From Phototrophicus methaneseepsis (lineage in GTDB: Bacteria > Chloroflexota > Anaerolineae > Aggregatilineales > Phototrophicaceae): DNA of 64,000 nucleotides. The notes beneath the pieces were generated by a model. The model ran no database searches and was not told where the DNA came from. It worked only from the letters and a program-made list of their open reading frames with translations. Position 1 is the stretch's first letter, and each line of letters opens with the position of its first letter. Below, piece by piece: positions 17,570-39,462 of this stretch. The DNA lies in the NCBI RefSeq assembly GCF_015500095.1, contig NZ_CP062983.1:4836001-4900000 (forward strand). Reading direction: 5' to 3'. A program made the translations under genes and the position numbers.

Positions 17570-17593
17570 AAAGCCCCCAGTGATGGGGGCTTT
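17570..17593. terminator. Bidirectional terminator between late genes and the cargo gene
   Basis: A 10-bp perfect stem AAAGCCCCCA / TGGGGGCTTT with loop GTGA. Convergent genes end on both sides; the stop of the minus-strand gene overlaps its right edge. Confidence 0.88.
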
Positions 17594-19220
17594 ATGGTAT
17601 TCTTTTAAGCTCATCCTCTAAAAAATCTGGGAAAAACACTTCTGATTTGCTTTGGTCAAATTTAAAAGCTATGAGGATTGTTTCCGCATCTGTGCTGAGA
17701 CTAGATTCTATTTCATCCATATTCACAATTTCAGTAGGATAAACAAGAAGTCCAGCTTGTACAGTGATCTCTTGATCAAAAATTTTAACAATAATTGATT
17801 GTGGTGGTATTAAACTGTATCCATGAGCTTCTATATGTTTAATAAAGTCTTTGTATGTGTTTCGATCTTTATCTACAATAAGTACATGGTCAGTGTCCGT
17901 AAATGGAAGAGGCCAAAGTAGGTTAGTGTGACCTTCTCGGAGGGCGTCGGAAAATACATTAATTATGTTTTCTTCGTCAGCGGAAATGGTGCGCTCAGGA
18001 ATTTTAATATCTAAGTCAAAAGCAGTGTTTATTTCATCTAAGTTAACTACAAGTTGTCGCATTCTATCGTCAGTAAACAGGGGTTTCGGAGTGACAGTAA
18101 ACTCTTCTATAACATAAATTTCTTCGGAATCTTTGTTAGTAATGCGAAGCTTTCCGATTGTAATTAGTTTTGAGAGAATCTCATCATATTCGAGGAGTTC
18201 AGCAGGTCTGTAGCCATTTGGATGAGAATATTCTATATTGATATTAGACTCAGGTTTCTGTTGATCAATTGTTATATTAATTTTGATTGGGTATTTTTTC
18301 GATAAACCCTCCATTTCCATAAAATGAGTGCCTTTATGCTTGTACTTAAAGATCGCAAACGTTGAAAATATACATTGATCATCTTTATTTAAATATTCAA
18401 GCTCTAGCGGAATTGTGTCGCCTGGTACTGCGAAGAATGCCTTAATCTCTATCGTATTTAAGTTATTTAAGGTGCTAGTGAACCATTCAGGTAAACCGGT
18501 TAGATTTAGATTACCAAGAAATGTAACACTTTCGCCTCGTTCAAATCCTCGCTTTAGTATTGCTTCTGCTTCGCTTGTTAACTTCAATTCACCTTGAACT
18601 GGCGAATCTTGAATAGCTCCTGGATATTTTTCAAAAACATCAATTGAATAACCTGTTCCAGAAGTTGAATAACGAAAATTGAAATGATCGTTTGTGTCAT
18701 TTGCTAAACTTACTCTTTTCAACATGAGGCTACGCTTATGATAGTTCATCACATGTTGAATAATTTTCGCTGCGGCCTTGGAGTCTAATTCGTGTCCTTG
18801 TTTAATAATTGATACTTTTTTTGTTTTTTGTTTTTCCCAGATCGGAGCATAGTTCTTTTCATACCACTCATCAAGCCACATCCAATAACTTTTATCGTTG
18901 ACGTGATCATGGTAGTGAAGCATGACCGGTACTGAAAGCTCAGCAAGATAAGTTAATGTGTTTATTTTGATGTTCTGTGATAGGCGTCTACCTTCAACTT
19001 TTTTAGTGGATGTAAACACTTTGCTCTGGATTCGAAACTCTGCACTTTGCACATCTGTACCTATGACAATTTCGACCCGCCAATCCTGTCCATATTCATA
19101 TTTGCTGAAAACATCATCCAGTGTGCTTATGTTACATTCTTTAAAGAATTTCTTGAGTGCCATGAGAGCTCGTTCGGAATTGTTATGTGCGTCAGTTTTT
19201 TGAGGACGATTTTTCCCCAT
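17592..19220 (-). CDS. DUF4365-like protein, prophage cargo
   Basis: A 542-residue protein, visibly AT-richer than the flanking phage genes. Residues 40-140 match the DUF4365 pattern: YGQDWRVEIVIG, then AEFRIQSKVF (an E-x-Q-x-K arrangement like a PD-(D/E)xK nuclease core), then LSVPVMLHYHDHVNDKSYWMWLDEW. The C-terminal 400 residues are not recognised and look like repeated beta-rich modules. DUF4365 proteins turn up with mobile elements and defence loci, but their activity is not established. Expressed opposite to the late genes, so likely active in the lysogen. An AT-rich leader with ATTATA (TATAAT on this strand) lies 36-41 bases upstream of ATG 19220. Confidence 0.72.
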   Translation of the reverse strand: MGKNRPQKTDAHNNSERALMALKKFFKECNISTLDDVFSKYEYGQDWRVEIVIGTDVQSAEFRIQSKVFTSTKKVEGRRLSQNIKINTLTYLAELSVPVMLHYHDHVNDKSYWMWLDEWYEKNYAPIWEKQKTKKVSIIKQGHELDSKAAAKIIQHVMNYHKRSLMLKRVSLANDTNDHFNFRYSTSGTGYSIDVFEKYPGAIQDSPVQGELKLTSEAEAILKRGFERGESVTFLGNLNLTGLPEWFTSTLNNLNTIEIKAFFAVPGDTIPLELEYLNKDDQCIFSTFAIFKYKHKGTHFMEMEGLSKKYPIKINITIDQQKPESNINIEYSHPNGYRPAELLEYDEILSKLITIGKLRITNKDSEEIYVIEEFTVTPKPLFTDDRMRQLVVNLDEINTAFDLDIKIPERTISADEENIINVFSDALREGHTNLLWPLPFTDTDHVLIVDKDRNTYKDFIKHIEAHGYSLIPPQSIIVKIFDQEITVQAGLLVYPTEIVNMDEIESSLSTDAETILIAFKFDQSKSEVFFPDFLEDELKRIP

Positions 19221-19409
19221 TTTATCTATCCCATCTACTGGCTGCTTTGTTAACCATTATATGGTGAGATATACCGTAAATGCGTTACATTTGGTTTTCC
19301 ATCTATTAGAACAATTGTAAGCCCGATGATTTTAAACGTGCCATGGCAGTGATTACATAGCTGATGGGCGTAAACCCCATTGACTTAATTATTGAATAGG
19401 ATGTGTGTT

Positions 19410-19437
19410 TGAAATCCCATCAATGGATGGGATTTCA
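19410..19437. other. Perfect 12-bp hairpin between the two cargo genes
   Basis: TGAAATCCCATC / GATGGGATTTCA with loop AATG. It lies downstream of the DUF3800-like gene and could end its transcript, but neither side has a T-run, so a protein-binding site is possible. The rest of 19221-19509 is AT-rich and shows nothing else. Confidence 0.5.
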
Positions 19438-19509
19438 GAATAAATGCACAAGTTAAAGTGCAGTAATGGGAGTATACGGTTACTTATGTTGCTAACCATG
19501 TGACCACAG

Positions 19510-20337
19510 CTATGCGCTGTCACTTAAGACTTGATTTCCATTCTGCCCTGATGCCAAAAGGAAGTTGTACGATCCGACAGGAGACTTGGTTAAACTTTGG
19601 TCGGGGTATAACTTCAAACCATACGAGAATATCTTCCCATACTTGGTATAAAGTTGGTGTGCAACACGTTTTAGATAACGTCCTTCACAAAAACCGAAGT
19701 TATCTGGTTCAATAGCATTGGATGCAATACCAGCGTATATATCTGCTATTTGAAGCATTTTAAGTTGATCGTTGGATACTAAGCGAAACGCATTCTTTTC
19801 AAATACGGGCTTGATACTTTCAGGACCCCTGTGCATTAAATCAGGAATGCGATTCTGTAAGTACTGATTGTATTTGTTTTTGCGTGTTGAAAATGTGACT
19901 GTGCCCGAAGCATTTTCTGCATAAATATGCCAACTAATGCGCTCCATAAGAAACAGTGTGACATAGTGCCAGAGTTTTTCATGGTTCCAACTAGATTGTC
20001 CCCAGAGCTTTGGCTTCCAGATACCTACTGTTATAAATGTGAATGGTTGCTGTGCTAGCTCGTCAGCAATCATCAGTTTGTGACTATGTTCAAATTGGAG
20101 CCAATGCAACCTAGTCGGTGGTGTATTTTTACAGTCAATCCAACCACGTTTAATAATCCTATCAACTACACTCATGCACTTGTCTTCATCAATTTCTTTC
20201 ACACATACGGCTGTAAAAGTGAGCCATTCCGTACTATGCATACATTTGGGTATTCCGAAGTTGAAACCTTCGTCGCCTGATTCGTCTATGTAAGCGTTGA
20301 TTTTCAATTTTGGAGCGAGGTTGATAAATGAGCTCAT
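19510..20337 (-). CDS. DUF3800-like protein, prophage cargo
   Basis: A 275-residue protein of the DUF3800 type. It has the N-terminal motif NAYIDESGDEGF and the C-terminal motif LKMLQIADIYAGIASNA, the two acidic clusters shared by the family and thought to form an RNase-H-like active site. Family members occur next to restriction and defence genes, but no reaction is established. Like its neighbour it is AT-rich and on the minus strand. Start ATG 20337 follows GGATAATACGGT. Confidence 0.82.
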   Translation of the reverse strand: MSSFINLAPKLKINAYIDESGDEGFNFGIPKCMHSTEWLTFTAVCVKEIDEDKCMSVVDRIIKRGWIDCKNTPPTRLHWLQFEHSHKLMIADELAQQPFTFITVGIWKPKLWGQSSWNHEKLWHYVTLFLMERISWHIYAENASGTVTFSTRKNKYNQYLQNRIPDLMHRGPESIKPVFEKNAFRLVSNDQLKMLQIADIYAGIASNAIEPDNFGFCEGRYLKRVAHQLYTKYGKIFSYGLKLYPDQSLTKSPVGSYNFLLASGQNGNQVLSDSA

Positions 20338-21359: not shown

Positions 21360-22151
21360 TTAGCTATCTTTGGTGAGTTGCTCGAGGTGGTCGGCGGCGC
21401 GGCGGTGCAGCTCTGCGAGGTGCTTAATCTGGTTGGCGTCCAGGTCTGTCTTCGCCAATTGCAGGTCTTTATCAATGTCGCGTTCCAGAGATGAAACGCG
21501 TTTCTGGAATGGCGAGGGCTGAAGCATGGGCGGCTTGTCGGTGGCCGCGCGGATTGCTTCGCGCATGCGGATGGCATCGCGCATCTGGCGATAGTTCCAG
21601 CCGTGTTTGATTTTCTGGGTGAGCCAGTAATATTGATCGGCTTCATCCATGGCCGCGACCAGCTCATAATGAGACTTCTGCGGGTGATCTGCAACAGAAA
21701 TGCCCGGAAATTGGTCTAAAACATCACTACGTAGTGATGTTTTGACGCGACGCATGATACTAGCTCGGTTCCGAGCGGTGGCCGGATCAATGCCAAAATG
21801 CAGGGCGATAGCCGTAATATCCCCGTATTTGAGGTCCTCGCAGGCGACCAATAAATCACCCATCCAGATGGCAAGTTGATTCTCCGAGAAGACAAGAAAT
21901 TGCATGGCTTCATTCATCTGCTCGGGCGTGATGGTCTCTGGCACGGTGAGGCCAGCGCCTGTCATGTGGCAGCCGCCAATGGTCACGGTGCCATCTTCGT
22001 TGAGGATGCCCTTCCCCTGTTTGACAGCTAAATCGCGGACGCGGCGCGGGACCGGCACGGAGCCATAAATTTGATCTGGCGTGGGGAGGCGTGGCGTGCT
22101 GGATGTCTGGCTTTGGATGCCATCTTCTAAACGCTTCTTCAAATTGCTCAT
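21360..22151 (-). CDS. ParB-position DNA-binding protein
   Basis: A 263-residue protein overlapping the end of parA by 4 bases (ATGA), the usual arrangement for the DNA-binding partner of ParA. A helix-turn-helix-like segment is visible (YGDITAIALHFGIDPATARN), followed by a helical region (YWLTQKIKHGWNYRQMRDAI) and a heptad-rich C-terminus (KRVSSLERDIDKDLQLAKTD). No classical ParB nuclease-fold motif is seen, so it may be an unrelated centromere-binding protein or a replication regulator. Its ribosome site CAGGAGCT is complementary to the linker of the small RNA at 20573-20665. Confidence 0.65.
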   Translation of the reverse strand: MSNLKKRLEDGIQSQTSSTPRLPTPDQIYGSVPVPRRVRDLAVKQGKGILNEDGTVTIGGCHMTGAGLTVPETITPEQMNEAMQFLVFSENQLAIWMGDLLVACEDLKYGDITAIALHFGIDPATARNRASIMRRVKTSLRSDVLDQFPGISVADHPQKSHYELVAAMDEADQYYWLTQKIKHGWNYRQMRDAIRMREAIRAATDKPPMLQPSPFQKRVSSLERDIDKDLQLAKTDLDANQIKHLAELHRRAADHLEQLTKDS

Positions 22152-22969
22152 GAGACGAGCTCCTGGGCGTGGGTGAGCAGGCTGCTGACCAGGCGCGTCA
22201 CCGGTTCAAATTCTCCACGCGCAGCGGCCACGCCGGGCACTTCTGCGGTCCAGATGGATTGTGTGAGGGTGCGGGCGCTGCGCCAGGCTGCCCTGCGCAT
22301 GACAGGGGGCAAGACCTGGTAGTGTGCGCCATAGAACTGCTGAAGGTGCTTATACATGAGGCGATCTGCTAGAAATCGCAGGGAGATTTTTTGCGGGACG
22401 ATGCCCAGGATTTGCGCCACTGCCGGTGGATCTGCCTGCTGGTTGGCTTGCGCGATGGCTGCGCTGATGTAAGCGATTGATTTTGCCAGCGAGCCGATGC
22501 TGTCGTCTTCGTTGAGGGTTGGCAGCAGGATGTAATCGGCGGTGAAGTAGAACGCGGTATGGATGGCGGTAATTGAGGGCGAGGTATCGACGATGATGAC
22601 ATCGTAGATGCTATCCAGTTCGTGGAAGCGCTCATAAATGACCTGCGTCACCAGGTTGTAATCGGCATGTTCGACTTCGCTTTGCAGCTCGGCAGCGCTG
22701 AGTAAATCGAAACGCAAGCCGGGGCCAGCAAATGCTTCTGGCACGGGCACAAGCACATCGGCCCATTCAGAATCTTCAAGGATGAGGGATGCAAAAGCGT
22801 CATGGGGTTCGATCCCCACTGAGCTGCTGGCATTGCCCTGCCCATCGGCATCGACGAGCAGGGTATGCAGGCCCTGGCGGGCCAGGCCGCTCGCCAGGGT
22901 AATCGCGCCGGTTGTCTTGCCAATGCCACCCTTGCGGCCCATCCAGGCGATGATTTTTGCTTTGGACAT
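22148..22969 (-). CDS. parA: ParA-family partition ATPase
   Basis: Walker-type ATPase that positions plasmids or phage-plasmids before division. It has the deviant Walker A box KGGIGKTTGAITLASGL, the switch sequence LLVDADGQGNAS, and the Walker B strand VIIVDTSPSITAIH. The 273-residue length is normal. ATG 22969 is taken as the start because GAAAGGTACCTC precedes it; the frame continues to 23014 without a site. Part of a minus-strand operon Rep, exonuclease, ParA, ParB-position. Confidence 0.92.
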   Translation of the reverse strand: MSKAKIIAWMGRKGGIGKTTGAITLASGLARQGLHTLLVDADGQGNASSSVGIEPHDAFASLILEDSEWADVLVPVPEAFAGPGLRFDLLSAAELQSEVEHADYNLVTQVIYERFHELDSIYDVIIVDTSPSITAIHTAFYFTADYILLPTLNEDDSIGSLAKSIAYISAAIAQANQQADPPAVAQILGIVPQKISLRFLADRLMYKHLQQFYGAHYQVLPPVMRRAAWRSARTLTQSIWTAEVPGVAAARGEFEPVTRLVSSLLTHAQELVS

Positions 22970-23050
22970 GAGGTACCTTTCAGTTACAAATTGTGTGTAC
23001 AAATTTTGTGTCAACGGGGAGCGGAAAGCTCCCCGGTGTGTGATCGCTTG

Positions 23051-24265
23051 TTAGCTGCTGGCAGCTTCTTGGGCGGGCTGATCAGCGGCGGCGATGGCCT
23101 TGACGAGAGCCAGCGTTGTGCGGCAGTCTGTCAGCGCGTTGTGCTGATTGCCGTCGCCCAGGTCGATGTCAAATTGCTGAATGGCGTAGGCTAGTTTGGG
23201 CCAGCGCCAATTGCCGAAGTAATCGTTCCATTCACCGCGATAAGCCGCGTACTGAAGCATGGCGCATTCTTCGTTCAGGCGATCGATGCGATTTAAACCA
23301 TGCATTTTGCAGACCTGATCAATGACGCCAGCATCGAACTGGGCATTGAAAATGACCCAGGTCTGGCCCCAGATATGTTTTCTCAGGTCCGCGTAAATAT
23401 CGGCAAAACCAGGGGCATCCGCGACCATGTCATCGGTGATGCCATGAACCTTACTCGCCGCAGCGGGGATGGGCTTTGTTGGCTTGACAAGTGTGTTCAT
23501 GAGCGCTGCGCCAGTGGATGACAGCACGCCGATCTGCACAATCTCAGCATCCCGATCTAAGCCGGTGGTTTCCAGGTCGATGACGACGAAACCGGCATCG
23601 CGGGCAAGCAACTTTTTTGCCCAGGCGATGGCCCCTGCCCGTGCTTGCTGCGCGTGCTCAAAGCTGCCTTCTTCTGGCTCGTCGTCTTCTAGAGCGTCGA
23701 TGTCATCCTGTTTTTCGCGCTGCCAGAGATCTGCCTCAAAGGGCACCTCTTCACCGCTTGGCTGTGGCGTGCGCTGGTAACGCCATTCAGCGCGCAGGTC
23801 ATCCAGCAGGCGATCGACAGCGACCAGGTCATCTTCGGTGATGCCATCTCGGTTAAGCTGAAAGTCTGACATGATAAATCGATAGGCTTCTGTGACTTCC
23901 ACGAGCCAGAAACGGATTTTGCCTGTATTCCAGGATGGCAGGTCCGGCTGAGCGTGAGCGAGCTGGATCACGGCAATTTCTCGTGCCCAATGGCGGGCCA
24001 TGTACTGGACCTCATCCTGGAACGCGAGATAAAAATTATTCAGCGTGACCCAGGCGTCGACCTGTTTGCCTTCGGCGATGACTTCGCCAATGTCGGACAG
24101 CAGATCACTATCCGGTGCGATGATTTCGACATCTGGGGCGATGGGGTAGCCGTGCTCATCCCATTGCAGCCCGGTGGTTTGAAGCGTCCAGGTGCCATCG
24201 CCGTAGTAGGGATAGCCTGCCGTTATTGTCTTGCGGAACACGATTTTGGTTTCTGGTTGTTGCAT
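23051..24265 (-). CDS. DnaQ-like DEDDh 3'-5' exonuclease with an unknown N-terminal half
   Basis: About residues 225-400 are a DEDDh exonuclease with all motifs: FVVIDLETTGLDRDAEIVQIG (Exo I), VIFNAQFDAG (Exo II), and HNALTDCRTTLALV (Exo III, His and Asp). This would proofread or process DNA ends during phage replication. The N-terminal 220 residues are not recognised and probably bind DNA or the replisome. ATG 24265 is preferred over GTG 24277, which overlaps the ribosome site GGGAGTG; the choice is not certain. Confidence 0.85.
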   Translation of the reverse strand: MQQPETKIVFRKTITAGYPYYGDGTWTLQTTGLQWDEHGYPIAPDVEIIAPDSDLLSDIGEVIAEGKQVDAWVTLNNFYLAFQDEVQYMARHWAREIAVIQLAHAQPDLPSWNTGKIRFWLVEVTEAYRFIMSDFQLNRDGITEDDLVAVDRLLDDLRAEWRYQRTPQPSGEEVPFEADLWQREKQDDIDALEDDEPEEGSFEHAQQARAGAIAWAKKLLARDAGFVVIDLETTGLDRDAEIVQIGVLSSTGAALMNTLVKPTKPIPAAASKVHGITDDMVADAPGFADIYADLRKHIWGQTWVIFNAQFDAGVIDQVCKMHGLNRIDRLNEECAMLQYAAYRGEWNDYFGNWRWPKLAYAIQQFDIDLGDGNQHNALTDCRTTLALVKAIAAADQPAQEAASS

Positions 24266-24290
24266 GATTTTATTCACTCCCGGAACTTAA

Positions 24291-25532
24291 TTAACCTGTT
24301 TGGATAGCAGCTTGCTGGCGTTCTAGAGAGCGCCGGAAAAAGCGTAAGCGCTCGCCTGGATATGACTGTTGTCTCACTGCCTGGATTGTGTCTTTCATCG
24401 CCCGATGAACGACGCGCGGGTCGAGATCTGAATCATCGATTTTTTTGATTTCGCTGAGTTCAGCTTCTGTCATGTCGTCGTGGAATTCGGCAGCCCACCA
24501 CATGGCGTTGGGATGCTTGGGCCCGCGACGAGCTGGTTTTTGATTTCCAGATTTTTTCGGGGAATTTTGAATCAATTTATTCTTGAAACTGTCTGCTATG
24601 GCAGGCAGCAGCGGGATTGCCTCGTACGCGCGCGCATGCGCGTCTTGTTTTTTATATACATCTGGTAGTTGTTTAAACGTCTGAATAGGTGGTTCAATTT
24701 GACCTACTTTATCAGGGCTTGCTGGTTCAAATTGACCTACTTTATGTGTGTTTGCTGGTTCAATCTGACCCACTTTATCGCTTTGCTGGTTCAAATTGAC
24801 CTGTTTTTCTCCGCTTGCTGGTTCAAATTGACCCACTTTATCGGGCACATTAGCGGGCGGCTGCGGCGGCTCTGGTTCTGGAACAGGCTGTTGAATGGGT
24901 GCTTGTTTGGTTGTTTGGGCGGCCACTTCTGCACCGCAGACTACGATGGCGAGCTGCCCGGCAAGGTGATAGGTGTTGGCATTGCCGCGACCGCGACCGG
25001 CTATCACAACCAGATGCCCGGCTTTAACGAGCTCTTTTGTGTGGCGCTTGAAGGTGCTCTCAGGGACGTCGAATTTCGCTGAGAGATCTTCAATACTGCC
25101 GAGGAGCGTATTGGTTTTGCGGCTGGTGTGACGAATAAATTTCGCCAGCAGGCCGAGCTGTGCCGGTGCCAGTTCATCGATGACGGCTTCTGGCAGGCGT
25201 GCGAAATAATGCCAGGCTGATTGCTCTGGCTCTGTCGTTGGTGCTGGTTCTGGCTCGGCTACGTCTTCCGGCAGATTAAACAGGCTGATGCGCTCATCTG
25301 CATGGAAGCAAAGTTCGGCAGGCTCGCCTGCGACATCGCTCAGAATGCGCCGAATGTTGCGATAGAGACGATGTTGGCACATGTCGCGGGCGTAGCTGTT
25401 GCGCACTTTAATATGGTAGATGCCAGCTTCGTAGGACTGGAACATCGCATCCATCAGCCACGTGAAGCTGGCTTCATCCAGTTGTAGTTCTAACTGATGG
25501 TATGCTGCGTTCCAGGCGTCTTGTGGTTGCAT
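24291..25532 (-). CDS. Replication initiator (DnaA-N-like domain plus winged-helix HTH)
   Basis: A 413-residue protein. Residues 5-75 resemble DnaA domain I (WNAAYHQLELQLDEASFTWL, then VRNSYARDMCQHRLYRNIRR), which recruits helicase. Residues 110-175 hold a winged helix-turn-helix (SIEDLSAKFDVPESTFKRHT, then GRGRGNANTYHLAG), as in phage and plasmid initiators. Residues 220-290 contain tandem DKVGQxEPA units, caused by DNA repeats described separately. The C-terminal third is basic. Start ATG 25532 follows CAAGGGAATTCA. Origin within the initiator gene is a familiar arrangement. Confidence 0.78.
   Translation of the reverse strand: MQPQDAWNAAYHQLELQLDEASFTWLMDAMFQSYEAGIYHIKVRNSYARDMCQHRLYRNIRRILSDVAGEPAELCFHADERISLFNLPEDVAEPEPAPTTEPEQSAWHYFARLPEAVIDELAPAQLGLLAKFIRHTSRKTNTLLGSIEDLSAKFDVPESTFKRHTKELVKAGHLVVIAGRGRGNANTYHLAGQLAIVVCGAEVAAQTTKQAPIQQPVPEPEPPQPPANVPDKVGQFEPASGEKQVNLNQQSDKVGQIEPANTHKVGQFEPASPDKVGQIEPPIQTFKQLPDVYKKQDAHARAYEAIPLLPAIADSFKNKLIQNSPKKSGNQKPARRGPKHPNAMWWAAEFHDDMTEAELSEIKKIDDSDLDPRVVHRAMKDTIQAVRQQSYPGERLRFFRRSLERQQAAIQTG
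24691..24842. repeat. Five iteron-like direct repeats inside rep (candidate origin)
   Basis: Copies of GGTTCAAATTGACCTACTTT start at 24691, 24724, 24757, 24788 and 24820, spaced 33, 33, 31 and 32 bp. The core TGCTGGTTCAAATTGACC is conserved, with one or two changes in the first and third copies. The fourth copy has the same core but lies in a different reading frame, so its protein reading differs. Conservation is thus at DNA level, which suits Rep-binding iterons set about three helical turns apart. Confidence 0.78.
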
Positions 25533-25597
25533 TGAATTCCCTTGCTGCGAATCAATTTATTGAATCAATTCATTCACTGCGCTCAGATGAGCGGTTT

Positions 25598-25714: not shown

Positions 25715-25844
25715 GTTTCCTCCCGATCTTTGTTTTTGTAATAGCCTTAGCATTTTCTTTGGACTTATCCGTTGCCATAAACTTCGGGCATAATTGTTTG
25801 CACCTTACATCCTCTTATTGGTGACCAAATTTCCGAGGTTTCTC

Positions 25845-26795
25845 ATGTCCAAAGCTATTTCATTGGCTGAAGCTGCCGATTTGTTTTTGATGGCAGCTCC
25901 ATACAGTCAGACAAGTAAACAGAACTACGAGATCTTCCTGACTAAAACTCTGGCTTCTTACATCGCGGCTGCGCGGCCAGTTGATGAAATTACTCACGGC
26001 GATCTGATACGGTTTGTAGCCTACTGCGAGCATGATCGTGGCGTGAGCTGCCGGAGTCTGAAGCAATATACTTATTTCCTGCGGAGTTTTTTCCGGTGGT
26101 GTTTGCGGGCCGGGTACATCGAGAACGATCCGGCAGCGGCACTGCTCACACCTAAGTGTGTGAAGGATGGATCGCGTGTGCGAGGGATACCGCCAGCGCA
26201 TCTGAGAAAGATGCTGGATTACACAGAGCAGACGAGCAAACGAAACTATGCGCTCATTCTGTTCATGGCGGTGACGGGCTGTCGGGTCCGGGCAGCGAGT
26301 GAATTGCGGTGCTCTAATCTTGATTTACAGTTGGGGTATGCCAGGCTGCTAGAGAAGGGCCGTCGCTGGGTGGTGTATGAGTTCGACCAATTGACGGCGG
26401 CGGCTCTTTCAGACTGGTTGATGAAGCGGCCAAATGTTGATCATGATTACGTATGGACCGGGCGCGGCCCGCACTACGAACCGCTGAAACACCAGGGGAT
26501 ACGGTCCATGCTGACCTATCTCTGCCAGAAGCTTGAACTGCCCCATTACACACCGCACCAGATTCGGCACAGCGCAGGCGAGATCCTGGCAAATCATGAT
26601 CATAGTGAATTGGCGGTTGCGAGTGCGCTGAATCATCAGAGTTTACAGAGTGCCCGTATTTATATGCCACAGCGCATGGCGGAAACGCGACACTTGAGGC
26701 ATGATATTGAAGCGACACTCTATCCCGATCGCGTTGATAGCCAACTTGAAAAGCCGCGAGCGGTAGGGCGGCCAATCCTCAAAATCGTGAAGTGA
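25845..26795 (+). CDS. Tyrosine recombinase / integrase
   Basis: Catalyses site-specific strand exchange for prophage integration and excision, or multimer resolution. The 316-residue protein has an N-terminal SAM-like domain (QTSKQNYEIFLTKTLASYI) and the full catalytic set: VTGCRVRAASEL (Arg I), LEKGRRWVVYEF (Lys), TPHQIRHSAGE (His-x-x-Arg), and ALNHQSLQSARIYM (His and the nucleophile Tyr). Start ATG 25845 follows CCGAGGTTTCTC; an in-frame upstream start at 25794 lacks a site. Placed at the right edge of the prophage with a core-like inverted repeat just behind it. Confidence 0.92.
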   Translation: MSKAISLAEAADLFLMAAPYSQTSKQNYEIFLTKTLASYIAAARPVDEITHGDLIRFVAYCEHDRGVSCRSLKQYTYFLRSFFRWCLRAGYIENDPAAALLTPKCVKDGSRVRGIPPAHLRKMLDYTEQTSKRNYALILFMAVTGCRVRAASELRCSNLDLQLGYARLLEKGRRWVVYEFDQLTAAALSDWLMKRPNVDHDYVWTGRGPHYEPLKHQGIRSMLTYLCQKLELPHYTPHQIRHSAGEILANHDHSELAVASALNHQSLQSARIYMPQRMAETRHLRHDIEATLYPDRVDSQLEKPRAVGRPILKIVK

Positions 26796-26830: not shown

Positions 26831-26861
26831 ATAGTGACATTTTGTCATCAAATGTCACTAT
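26831..26861. other. Candidate recombinase core site (12-bp arms, 7-bp spacer)
   Basis: ATAGTGACATTT (26831-26842) and AAATGTCACTAT (26850-26861) are perfect inverted arms around the asymmetric spacer TGTCATC. This is the geometry of tyrosine-recombinase core sites (arms of 11-13 bp, spacer 6-8 bp) and it lies 36 bp beyond the recombinase stop. It lacks a T-run and so is not a good terminator. Assignment as attR or a resolution site is inference. Confidence 0.55.
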
Positions 26862-26907
26862 ATATGGCTATAAAGAGACATCAGTCACTTTCGATGTGTT
26901 TAGAATT

Positions 26908-37832: not shown

Positions 37833-38867
37833 ATGTCAGACCAGATCGCACAAGTAGAGCAGGAAGCACTGGCGGCGCTGGAAGGCGCTAAAGATGCAGA
37901 TGCACTGCAACAGTGGAAATCACAATTTTTAGGGAATCGCGGGGCCGTGCGTGCCCTGCTCAGCCAGATTGGCGGACTGCCGCCAGAAGAACGGGCCGGA
38001 TTCGGCCAGGGTGTCAATGCGCTTAAAGAGAAGCTCACAGCCGCATTTGACGAGCGCGAAAATGCCCTGCGTGCGCATGCCATCGCCCAGGACCTGGAAG
38101 AAGGCCAGATTGACATCAGCCTGCCAGGGCGTACGCGCCAGGTTGGGGGCTTGCACCCGGTGACGATGATGCACCGTCAATTCCAGAAAATCTGGGCTGA
38201 TATGGGCTTCCAGGTTTTCCGCAGTCGTGAGGTCGAAGAAGACGATATCAACTTCACGGCATTGAATATGCCGCCTCACCATCCTGCGCGCGATATGCAG
38301 GATACCTTCTATACAGACGAAGAAGGCGTCATCTTGCGCACCCACACCTCACCTGGGCAGATTCACGCGATGCGCACCCTGGGCGAGAATGGGACGAAAG
38401 CGATCCGCGTCATCCTGCCGGGTATGGTCTATCGCAATGAGCAGATCACGGCCCGCAGCGAAGCGCAGTTCACCCAGGTGGAAGGCCTCGCTATTGGCCG
38501 CAACATCCGTATGAGCGACCTCAAAGGCACCATTACGGAATTTGCGCACCGTATCTATGGTGAAGATGTACAGGTACGCTATCGTGCCTCTTACTTCCCC
38601 TTCACCGAGCCGAGTATGGAAGTCGATGCAGAGTGCTTCTTATGTGGCGGCGCGGGCTGCCGTGTGTGCAAATACACCGGCTGGCTGGAGATCGCTGGCA
38701 GCGGTATGGTCCATCCTAACGTGCTGCGCAACGGCGGTTACGATCCATCCGAGTGGAGCGGCTTTGCCTTTGGCATGGGCCCAGAGCGTATGACCATGCT
38801 GCGTCACAATATCCAGGATATTCGATATTTCTGGTCGAATGATCTGCGTTTCCTGGAGCAGTTCTAA
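37833..38867 (+). CDS. pheS: Phenylalanyl-tRNA synthetase alpha subunit
   Basis: Class II synthetase subunit with the catalytic site of the alpha2-beta2 enzyme that charges tRNA-Phe. It has an N-terminal coiled coil, then the class II motifs: HPVTMMHRQFQKIWADMGF (motif 1), GMVYRNEQITARSEAQFTQV (motif 2), FAFGMGPERMTMLRHNIQD (motif 3), and DAECFLCGGAGCRVCKYTGW, a cysteine-rich insertion seen in several bacterial PheS. At 344 residues it is complete. GAGGAGGATGT precedes the ATG, behind the T-box. Confidence 0.97.
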   Translation: MSDQIAQVEQEALAALEGAKDADALQQWKSQFLGNRGAVRALLSQIGGLPPEERAGFGQGVNALKEKLTAAFDERENALRAHAIAQDLEEGQIDISLPGRTRQVGGLHPVTMMHRQFQKIWADMGFQVFRSREVEEDDINFTALNMPPHHPARDMQDTFYTDEEGVILRTHTSPGQIHAMRTLGENGTKAIRVILPGMVYRNEQITARSEAQFTQVEGLAIGRNIRMSDLKGTITEFAHRIYGEDVQVRYRASYFPFTEPSMEVDAECFLCGGAGCRVCKYTGWLEIAGSGMVHPNVLRNGGYDPSEWSGFAFGMGPERMTMLRHNIQDIRYFWSNDLRFLEQF

Positions 38868-38982: not shown

Positions 38983-39462
38983 ATGCCGTTACCGATTCTA
39001 TTTGCGATAGGCAACCTGGTTGGTCAGTTTTTGGGGGCACTGCGGCGCGCCTGGGGTGATCCAGCATCGCGCGGGCTCATCTACAGCGTGGGGCTCCTGA
39101 TTGCACTTGGCACATTTATCTTCCATACCCTTGAGGGCTGGGATTGGGTCGATTCGCTGTATTTCACGGTCATTACGCTGACGACAGTGGGTTATGGCGA
39201 CTTCGCCCCACAGACGCAGCTCGGCAAGCTGTTCACGGTCTTATATATCATCCTGGGGCTGGGCTTGTTGGGCAGTTTCATCACCCTGATTGGCACACAC
39301 AGCCGTGCCAACCTGGAAGAAAGAAGGAACCACCCAAGAGGACGGCGCCAAAGACGTAAGCGTCGATCACGTCACAATGCCCTGAGCGAAGAATCAACGG
39401 AAGCAAGCGAAGAAGCGATAGAAAAAGCAACAAGCGAAGAAGAGACAGAGGAGACAGAATAA
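38983..39462 (+). CDS. Two-helix potassium channel subunit
   Basis: A 159-residue protein with two membrane helices (LIYSVGLLIALGTFIFHTLE and LGKLFTVLYIILGLGLLGSF) around a pore loop with the selectivity filter TTVGYGDF. It forms a tetrameric K+ channel. The C-terminus is a charged, basic-then-acidic tail (RRQRRKRRSRHNALS, then acidic repeats) with no RCK domain. ATG 38983 is taken because GAGGG precedes it; ATG 38944 has no properly spaced site. It lies between pheS and pheT, its stop three bases before pheT, so it is on the T-box-controlled transcript. Confidence 0.85.
   Translation: MPLPILFAIGNLVGQFLGALRRAWGDPASRGLIYSVGLLIALGTFIFHTLEGWDWVDSLYFTVITLTTVGYGDFAPQTQLGKLFTVLYIILGLGLLGSFITLIGTHSRANLEERRNHPRGRRQRRKRRSRHNALSEESTEASEEAIEKATSEEETEETE

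Follow-up and report, generated by a model that had tools for sequence, protein, structure and literature searches.

Phage lambda carries its replication origin, ori-lambda, as iterons within the gene of its own initiator protein, O, and here we describe what appears to be a comparable arrangement in rep, an initiator gene of a prophage of Phototrophicus methaneseepsis, a deep-sea member of the Chloroflexota. The gene lies in a 64,000-nucleotide stretch of the genome (contig NZ_CP062983.1, positions 4,836,001 to 4,900,000), called the window below, and coordinates are those of the window unless the genome is named. An initial annotation of this DNA proposed a strong candidate replication origin within rep. 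Our analysis supports that proposal, and we regard the repeat-bearing segment as very probably a phage replication origin with iterons, of the lambda O type and embedded in the initiator gene. Two relatives serve for comparison, namely a homolog of rep, 33% identical overall, in a third element found in a same-genus genome, and a paralog in a second prophage-like element of the P. methaneseepsis genome (L006:4563-5960; genome 1214562-1215959).

The lambda record J02459 was examined as a control. The record annotates four iterons, with starts at 39034, 39054, 39078 and 39101, and a 900-base coding sequence, which we take to be gene O although the record's product label reads otherwise, starts at 38686. 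Arithmetic on these starts places the iterons in three frames; lambda, like rep, thus has internal iterons in several frames of an initiator gene. We know of no DnaA-like domain in lambda O, a point on which rep differs, and the lambda iterons are spaced 20-24 bp apart as against 31-33 bp in rep. The coding sequence fits the 299 residues given for O (PMC6022878; this and the other papers are cited for individual passages). The iterons adjoin an AT-rich tract in lambda (PMC6022878, PMC7466680) as they do in rep, and two small in-frame deletions in the lambda tract are described as leaving O able to complement (PMC6022878). In lambda, protein P binds DnaB (PMC6022878), whereas no loader was found beside rep.

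Plasmids of the RepA_N class such as pSK41 also resemble rep in having Rep boxes in the middle of the initiator gene, where the encoded stretch is described as a dispensable linker (PMC5703833), but the RepA_N domain was not found in the rep protein in a Pfam scan at an expectation (E) value of 0.1. Bacillus phage SPP1, compared here by its description, combines gp38 and oriL with a separate loader, gp39 (PMC6316719), and in this it resembles the homolog with its DnaC-like gene; it differs from rep in that another origin, oriR, lies at a distance of about 13 kb (PMC6316719). Finally, rep and the paralog resemble bacterial DnaA in domain I, but unlike in DnaA, no AAA+ domain and no domain IV were matched, the match in rep being confined to its N-terminal region. 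This N-terminus resembling host DnaA domain I is the feature in which the arrangement departs from a lambda-type in-gene origin.

The repeat array and its surroundings

Five copies of the pattern TGGTTCAA[A/T][T/C]TGACC lie in rep, spaced by 33, 33, 31 and 32 bp along the plus strand. A pattern search confirms the initial annotation of five copies at 31-33 bp spacing with four in one frame; the fourth copy along the plus strand, there placed at 24788, was found at 24787 and is indeed out of frame, encoding QVNLNQQ. The in-frame copies had been given as encoding GQ(F/I)EPA, which holds for three of them, while the last copy in the gene ends in EPP. In gene order, the array and the two tracts that follow it are:

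24819..24839, plus strand: iteron 1, in frame, GQFEPA
24787..24807, plus strand: iteron 2, out of frame, QVNLNQQ (KQVNLNQQ with the preceding residue)
24756..24776, plus strand: iteron 3, in frame, GQIEPA
24723..24743, plus strand: iteron 4, in frame, GQFEPA
24690..24710, plus strand: iteron 5, in frame, GQIEPP
24644..24666, minus strand: AT-rich tract ACCAGATGTATATAAAAAACAAG, putative DNA unwinding element; homolog and paralog have a similar tract
24623..24643, minus strand: alternating purine-pyrimidine GC tract with a palindrome (ACGCGCATGCGCGCGCGTACG), similar in homolog and paralog

The 21-base pattern, with up to three mismatches, matches the window exactly five times, where 0.04 matches would be expected, and the 15-base core, with up to one mismatch, occurs at these five places only in the 5,631,885-bp genome. 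Iteron 2 and one of the in-frame copies agree over 20 bases without a mismatch. This is the longest exact out-of-frame repeat of the array, at an offset of 64 nucleotides (nt), and when the gene was reshuffled among synonymous codons 1000 times, no redraw reached it (maximum 13 nt).

The repeats, their spacing, the out-of-frame copy and its counterpart in the homolog, the AT-rich and GC tracts and the DnaA-like N-terminus of the protein are all legible in the sequence itself, and the order of array, AT-rich tract (ACCAGATRTADATA...) and alternating GC tract was found in all three genes. If the segment serves as the phage origin in the manner of lambda ori within gene O, the winged helix of Rep would bind the five repeats, which, at about three helical turns apart, would lie on roughly one face of the DNA. 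The Rep-iteron complex would then melt the AT-rich tract at 24644-24666, and the DnaA-domain-I-like N-terminus of Rep would recruit the host replicative helicase directly, so that no phage loader would be needed.

Two features of the layout sit less comfortably with such an origin. The richest 20-nt AT window within 150 nt past the array lies 106 nt away in rep and 121 nt away in the paralog, falling inside the named AT-rich tract in the homolog alone, and rep contains no exact DnaA box. The distance in rep would also suit repeats that bind Rep but act mainly in copy-number control or autoregulation, with replication starting elsewhere in the phage. Plasmid iterons are known to serve control. 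An AT-rich 16-nt motif (TTGAATCAATTTATTC-like), a possible operator, recurs at 25547-25562 and 25560-25575, just upstream of rep, and at 24567-24582 in its 3' part, and this too would favour a control site. We give the control role little credence, given the absence of the core from the rest of the genome and the order of array, AT-rich tract and GC tract common to the three genes.

The GC palindrome at 24626-24643 on the plus strand, with a T run beyond it, looks like an intrinsic terminator facing against the direction of rep; the surrounding 6.2-kb stretch has 12 such sites against 6.5 expected. The ACCAGATRTADATAWAAA tract was also considered as a general mark of origins and rejected, since one of 118 IMG/VR stretches has an array and that one belongs to the same phage.

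DNA-level and possible peptide constraints on the repeats

The homolog has a core different from that of rep, yet its second copy is also out of frame. The longest exact out-of-frame repeat in the homolog is 18 nt, again at an offset of 64 (spacings 31 and 33), and 0 of 1000 synonymous reshuffles reach 18. Mean pairwise identity of the cores exceeds that of 10-nt linker samples in rep (0.93 versus 0.38) and in the homolog (0.84 versus 0.35), in a comparison that favours the cores because these were found by a consensus pattern. Between the two lineages the cores are different, but within either one the copies, even that out of frame, match one another, and the linkers have drifted.

A survey of 37 genes sets this arrangement among related initiators. 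It comprises 33 genes from class and phylum genomes that match HTH_36 or the three-row alignment (30 loci from a much longer match list and three loci from the phylum whole-genome search), the three rep genes and lambda O; it includes near-relatives, and some of its genes are probably not initiators. An array was defined as an 11-mer present four or more times, one mismatch being allowed. Three-copy arrays, frequent in reshuffled genes, were dropped, and lambda O, in which three of the four annotated copies were found, is thus not counted. Arrays are present in 11 of the 37 genes. Eight of the arrays mix frames, namely those of rep, of the homolog from the same genus and of six of the 33, and three keep to a single frame (the paralog, L061 and L071). 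For ten of the array genes, synonymous reshuffles match the copy number in 0 or 1 of 200 cases; for L070 they do so in 11 of 200. A mixed-frame four-copy array of some kind arises 38 times in 200 reshuffles for L055, 11 times for L070, 9 times for L088 and at most twice for any of the others. As controls we took 83 other open reading frames (ORFs) of at least 200 residues from the window and four 20-kb loci: two hold an array, both in a single frame, and none a mixed-frame one (0/83).

A whole-protein search for relatives mainly returned DnaA genes, and later searches therefore used the part of rep without that region. IMG/VR gave no relative with the first alignment, rep or the paralog as query, and one with the three-row alignment, its rep gene identical to the same-genus one; GTDB contigs gave none in a first scan and one in a second, and GenBank phages none at E 0.01, all three being collections that may omit the genome studied here. 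Matches in whole genomes, with this genome counted each time, were found in 2 of 154 for the order, 3 of 396 for the class and 4 of 400 for the phylum, and those beyond this genome and the same-genus one are partial, within positions 14-131 of 327.

Several findings count against the reading as a lambda-type in-gene origin or limit it. The rep family amounts to three genes found, two of them in this genome. The paralog array has at least six copies, all in frame and most encoding KVAQTEP, and its longest out-of-frame repeat, 6 nt, is no more than in reshuffled genes. K..Q.E is common to most in-frame copies of all three genes. The protein alignment also permits copy 3 of rep to be paired with copy 4 of the homolog through a common ANTHK, in which case the two out-of-frame copies were not inherited from one but arose or moved separately.

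These observations could be taken to mean that the array is a repeated linker peptide, K-V-x-Q-x-E-P, under protein-level selection, its DNA likeness stemming from recent tandem duplication and the out-of-frame copy being a neutral slip. The in-frame paralog copies and the shared K..Q.E agree with this, as does some third-base variation within the array (GTA/GTG, CAA/CAG). Conservation of the peptide repeat at the protein level in relatives, which the initial annotation had named as the finding that would speak against its proposal, is indeed seen throughout the paralog, but not in the same-genus homolog. Against a peptide repeat stand the out-of-frame copies in two lineages with different cores, the likeness of cores whose linkers have diverged, and the mixed frames that are common among related array-bearing initiators and absent from the control ORFs; we consider it very unlikely. 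The same recurrence of the out-of-frame copy in a diverged homolog, together with the survey, bears out the proposal of DNA-level iterons inside an initiator gene. With out-of-frame copies in two lineages and a paralog in frame throughout, we conclude with high confidence that selection acts on DNA in the iterons, and allow that a peptide constraint may operate alongside it.

Of the eight array-bearing survey genes other than rep, homolog and paralog, five (L055, L059, L070, L072 and L088) carry a second short sequence, AACCGTC, after their last iteron. This sequence is absent from L056, L061 and L071, occurs once in L084, which has no four-copy array, and is lacking in rep, the homolog and the paralog. 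IMG/VR was searched for three copies with gaps of 2-8 bases, the reversed motif serving as control, and each search returned at least 120 stretches. Among the matches listed, 109 AACCGTC stretches lie in an ORF of at least 100 residues, and 86 of these are in the sense orientation; a four-copy array is present at most 350 bp upstream in 43, and 36 of these arrays are mixed-frame. The corresponding counts for the reversed motif, likewise among the matches listed, are 102 in an ORF, 64 in sense, 8 arrays and 0 mixed-frame.

Further properties of the AACCGTC copies were recorded, all among the matches listed. An HTH_36 match (E 0.001) is present in 31 of the 36 mixed-frame ORFs, and AACCGTC itself stands in more than one frame in 29 of the 36 when all copies in the ORF are counted, or in 27 when the close cluster only is taken; in two of the 36 the array seed overlaps the motif (L157, L185), and L194 and L197 have an N-terminus that is also seen in other ORFs. 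Copies are mostly spaced by 10-13 bp (76 of 79 gaps of at most 20 bp), and the motif lies 0-72 nt from the last iteron, with a median of 13. In the five survey genes and the IMG/VR loci L090-L209 there are often three copies 11-12 bp apart, read as EPS, NRQ or TV. In many phage initiator genes AACCGTC, about 13 nt past the iterons, may be a second element of the origin.

The initiator protein and proposed helicase recruitment

The gene and its two recognisable domains are as follows.

24291..25532, minus strand: rep, initiator gene of 413 residues, with a DnaA-domain-I-like N-terminus, winged helix, repeat-encoded linker and C-terminal region (ORF, family searches, structure model)
25293..25532, minus strand: encodes residues 1-80, which resemble DnaA domain I (identity to host DnaA 78% across 74 aligned positions, with a one-residue gap in the alignment after F23)
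24963..25190, minus strand: residues 115-190, winged helix, the predicted DNA-binding domain (HTH_36 and PHROG matches, model, fold search)

The initial description of the product as an initiator with DnaA-N and helix-turn-helix parts stands with a reservation. The DnaA_N assignment is firm by identity to host DnaA domain I (58/74 in rep; 55/78, or 71%, in the paralog), and the AlphaFold model shows a winged helix, but the Pfam scores (DnaA_N 14.0 bits, HTH_36 14.0 bits) are both under the Pfam cut-offs. PHROG profiles match the O-like and other replication initiators at E about 1e-4 (O-like 1.4e-4). Within the winged helix the predicted local distance difference test (pLDDT) scores by block are 61-68 for residues 111-140 and 70-84 for residues 141-190, and the whole-protein model, built on a two-row alignment, is poor (mean pLDDT 45.7). 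A fold search with the model gave nothing at E < 0.001, its top matches being winged-helix regulators, and a profile search of solved structures gave nothing credible.

The homolog is without nearly all of the DnaA-like region, and its next gene is a DnaC-like loader (PHROG E 3.7e-28), for which tblastn found no match better than E 3 in the examined stretches of the other two elements. Domain I of Escherichia coli DnaA takes part in helicase loading, according to the passage cited (PMC4980987). From the DnaA-like N-terminus in two reps, the DnaC-like loader in the homolog that lacks it and the role of the E. coli domain, we propose that the N-terminus of Rep may recruit the helicase; given the origin and its iterons, and with three cases to go on, we judge this proposal evenly poised. 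The broader scenario, in which a phage initiator captured host DnaA domain I and recruits host helicase to an in-gene origin without need of a loader, so that captured domain and DnaC-like loader are alternatives within one phage lineage, we advance tentatively, as somewhat more doubtful. Two points count against recruitment by this domain. With its missing residue and sub-threshold Pfam score, the DnaA-like N-terminus of rep may be degenerate, that of the paralog scoring above the cut-off; and the scan that found no loader covered a part of the prophage ORFs. Literature searches, mostly aimed elsewhere and judged by titles and abstract openings, brought up no description of a phage initiator fused to DnaA domain I.

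The prophage and the meaning of its candidate origin

The prophage spans 38,847 bp between two 29-bp direct repeats, which occur in these two copies only in the genome (up to two mismatches allowed), and family searches identify terminase, portal, head and tail genes. On the strand opposite the structural genes lie rep, the exonuclease gene, parA and one more gene, with the integrase divergent:

26838..26866, plus strand: 29-bp direct repeat, right end of the prophage (partner copy at genome 4824020-4824048, outside the window)
25794..26795, plus strand: tyrosine integrase, divergent from rep (family searches)
23051..24277, minus strand: lies downstream of rep and encodes an exonuclease (RNase_T / DNA polymerase exonuclease subunit; family searches)
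22148..23014, minus strand: parA-like gene (family searches)
21360..22151, minus strand: gene after parA, at the place of parB (Pfam and PHROG at E 0.1, no match)

The initial annotation had called this element a phage-plasmid. As stated, that is not supported, because the element sits integrated between direct repeats beside a tyrosine integrase; given its ParA gene, an episomal phase is possible. The array might, on that view, be the plasmid-like origin of a phage-plasmid that maintains the element as an episome in lysogens, as parA and the following gene, downstream of rep and co-directional with it, would suggest. The integrated state, the direct repeats, the adjoining integrase and the want of a family match for the gene at parB's place make this unlikely, and it is in any case compatible with the lambda-type reading, as one origin could serve both.

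The second prophage-like element has the same gene order plus one extra 194-residue ORF after its rep; a near-identical exonuclease gene and a ParA-like gene were recognised there by eye from translations, and no end repeat of at least 13 bases was found in the flank examined. Between the structural and replication modules of the prophage, 17592-20337 has a low GC content, and its genes match DUF4365 and DUF3800, neither with a PADLOC match. The left part of the prophage, outside the window, encodes a 1140-residue protein with TIR, NB-ARC and TPR domains (L008:9282-12704; genome 4829282-4832704), possibly a prophage-borne defence gene.

Through these analyses a candidate origin can be located exactly within a phage whose host is a cultured strain of Chloroflexota. 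With an out-of-frame copy that has a counterpart in a diverged homolog with an altered core, the array offers a clean case of DNA-level selection within a coding sequence, and AACCGTC may mark many phage origins of the kind that lies in an initiator gene, which is directly testable. The DnaA-like N-terminus suggests a way in which phages may borrow the helicase-recruiting domain of their host.
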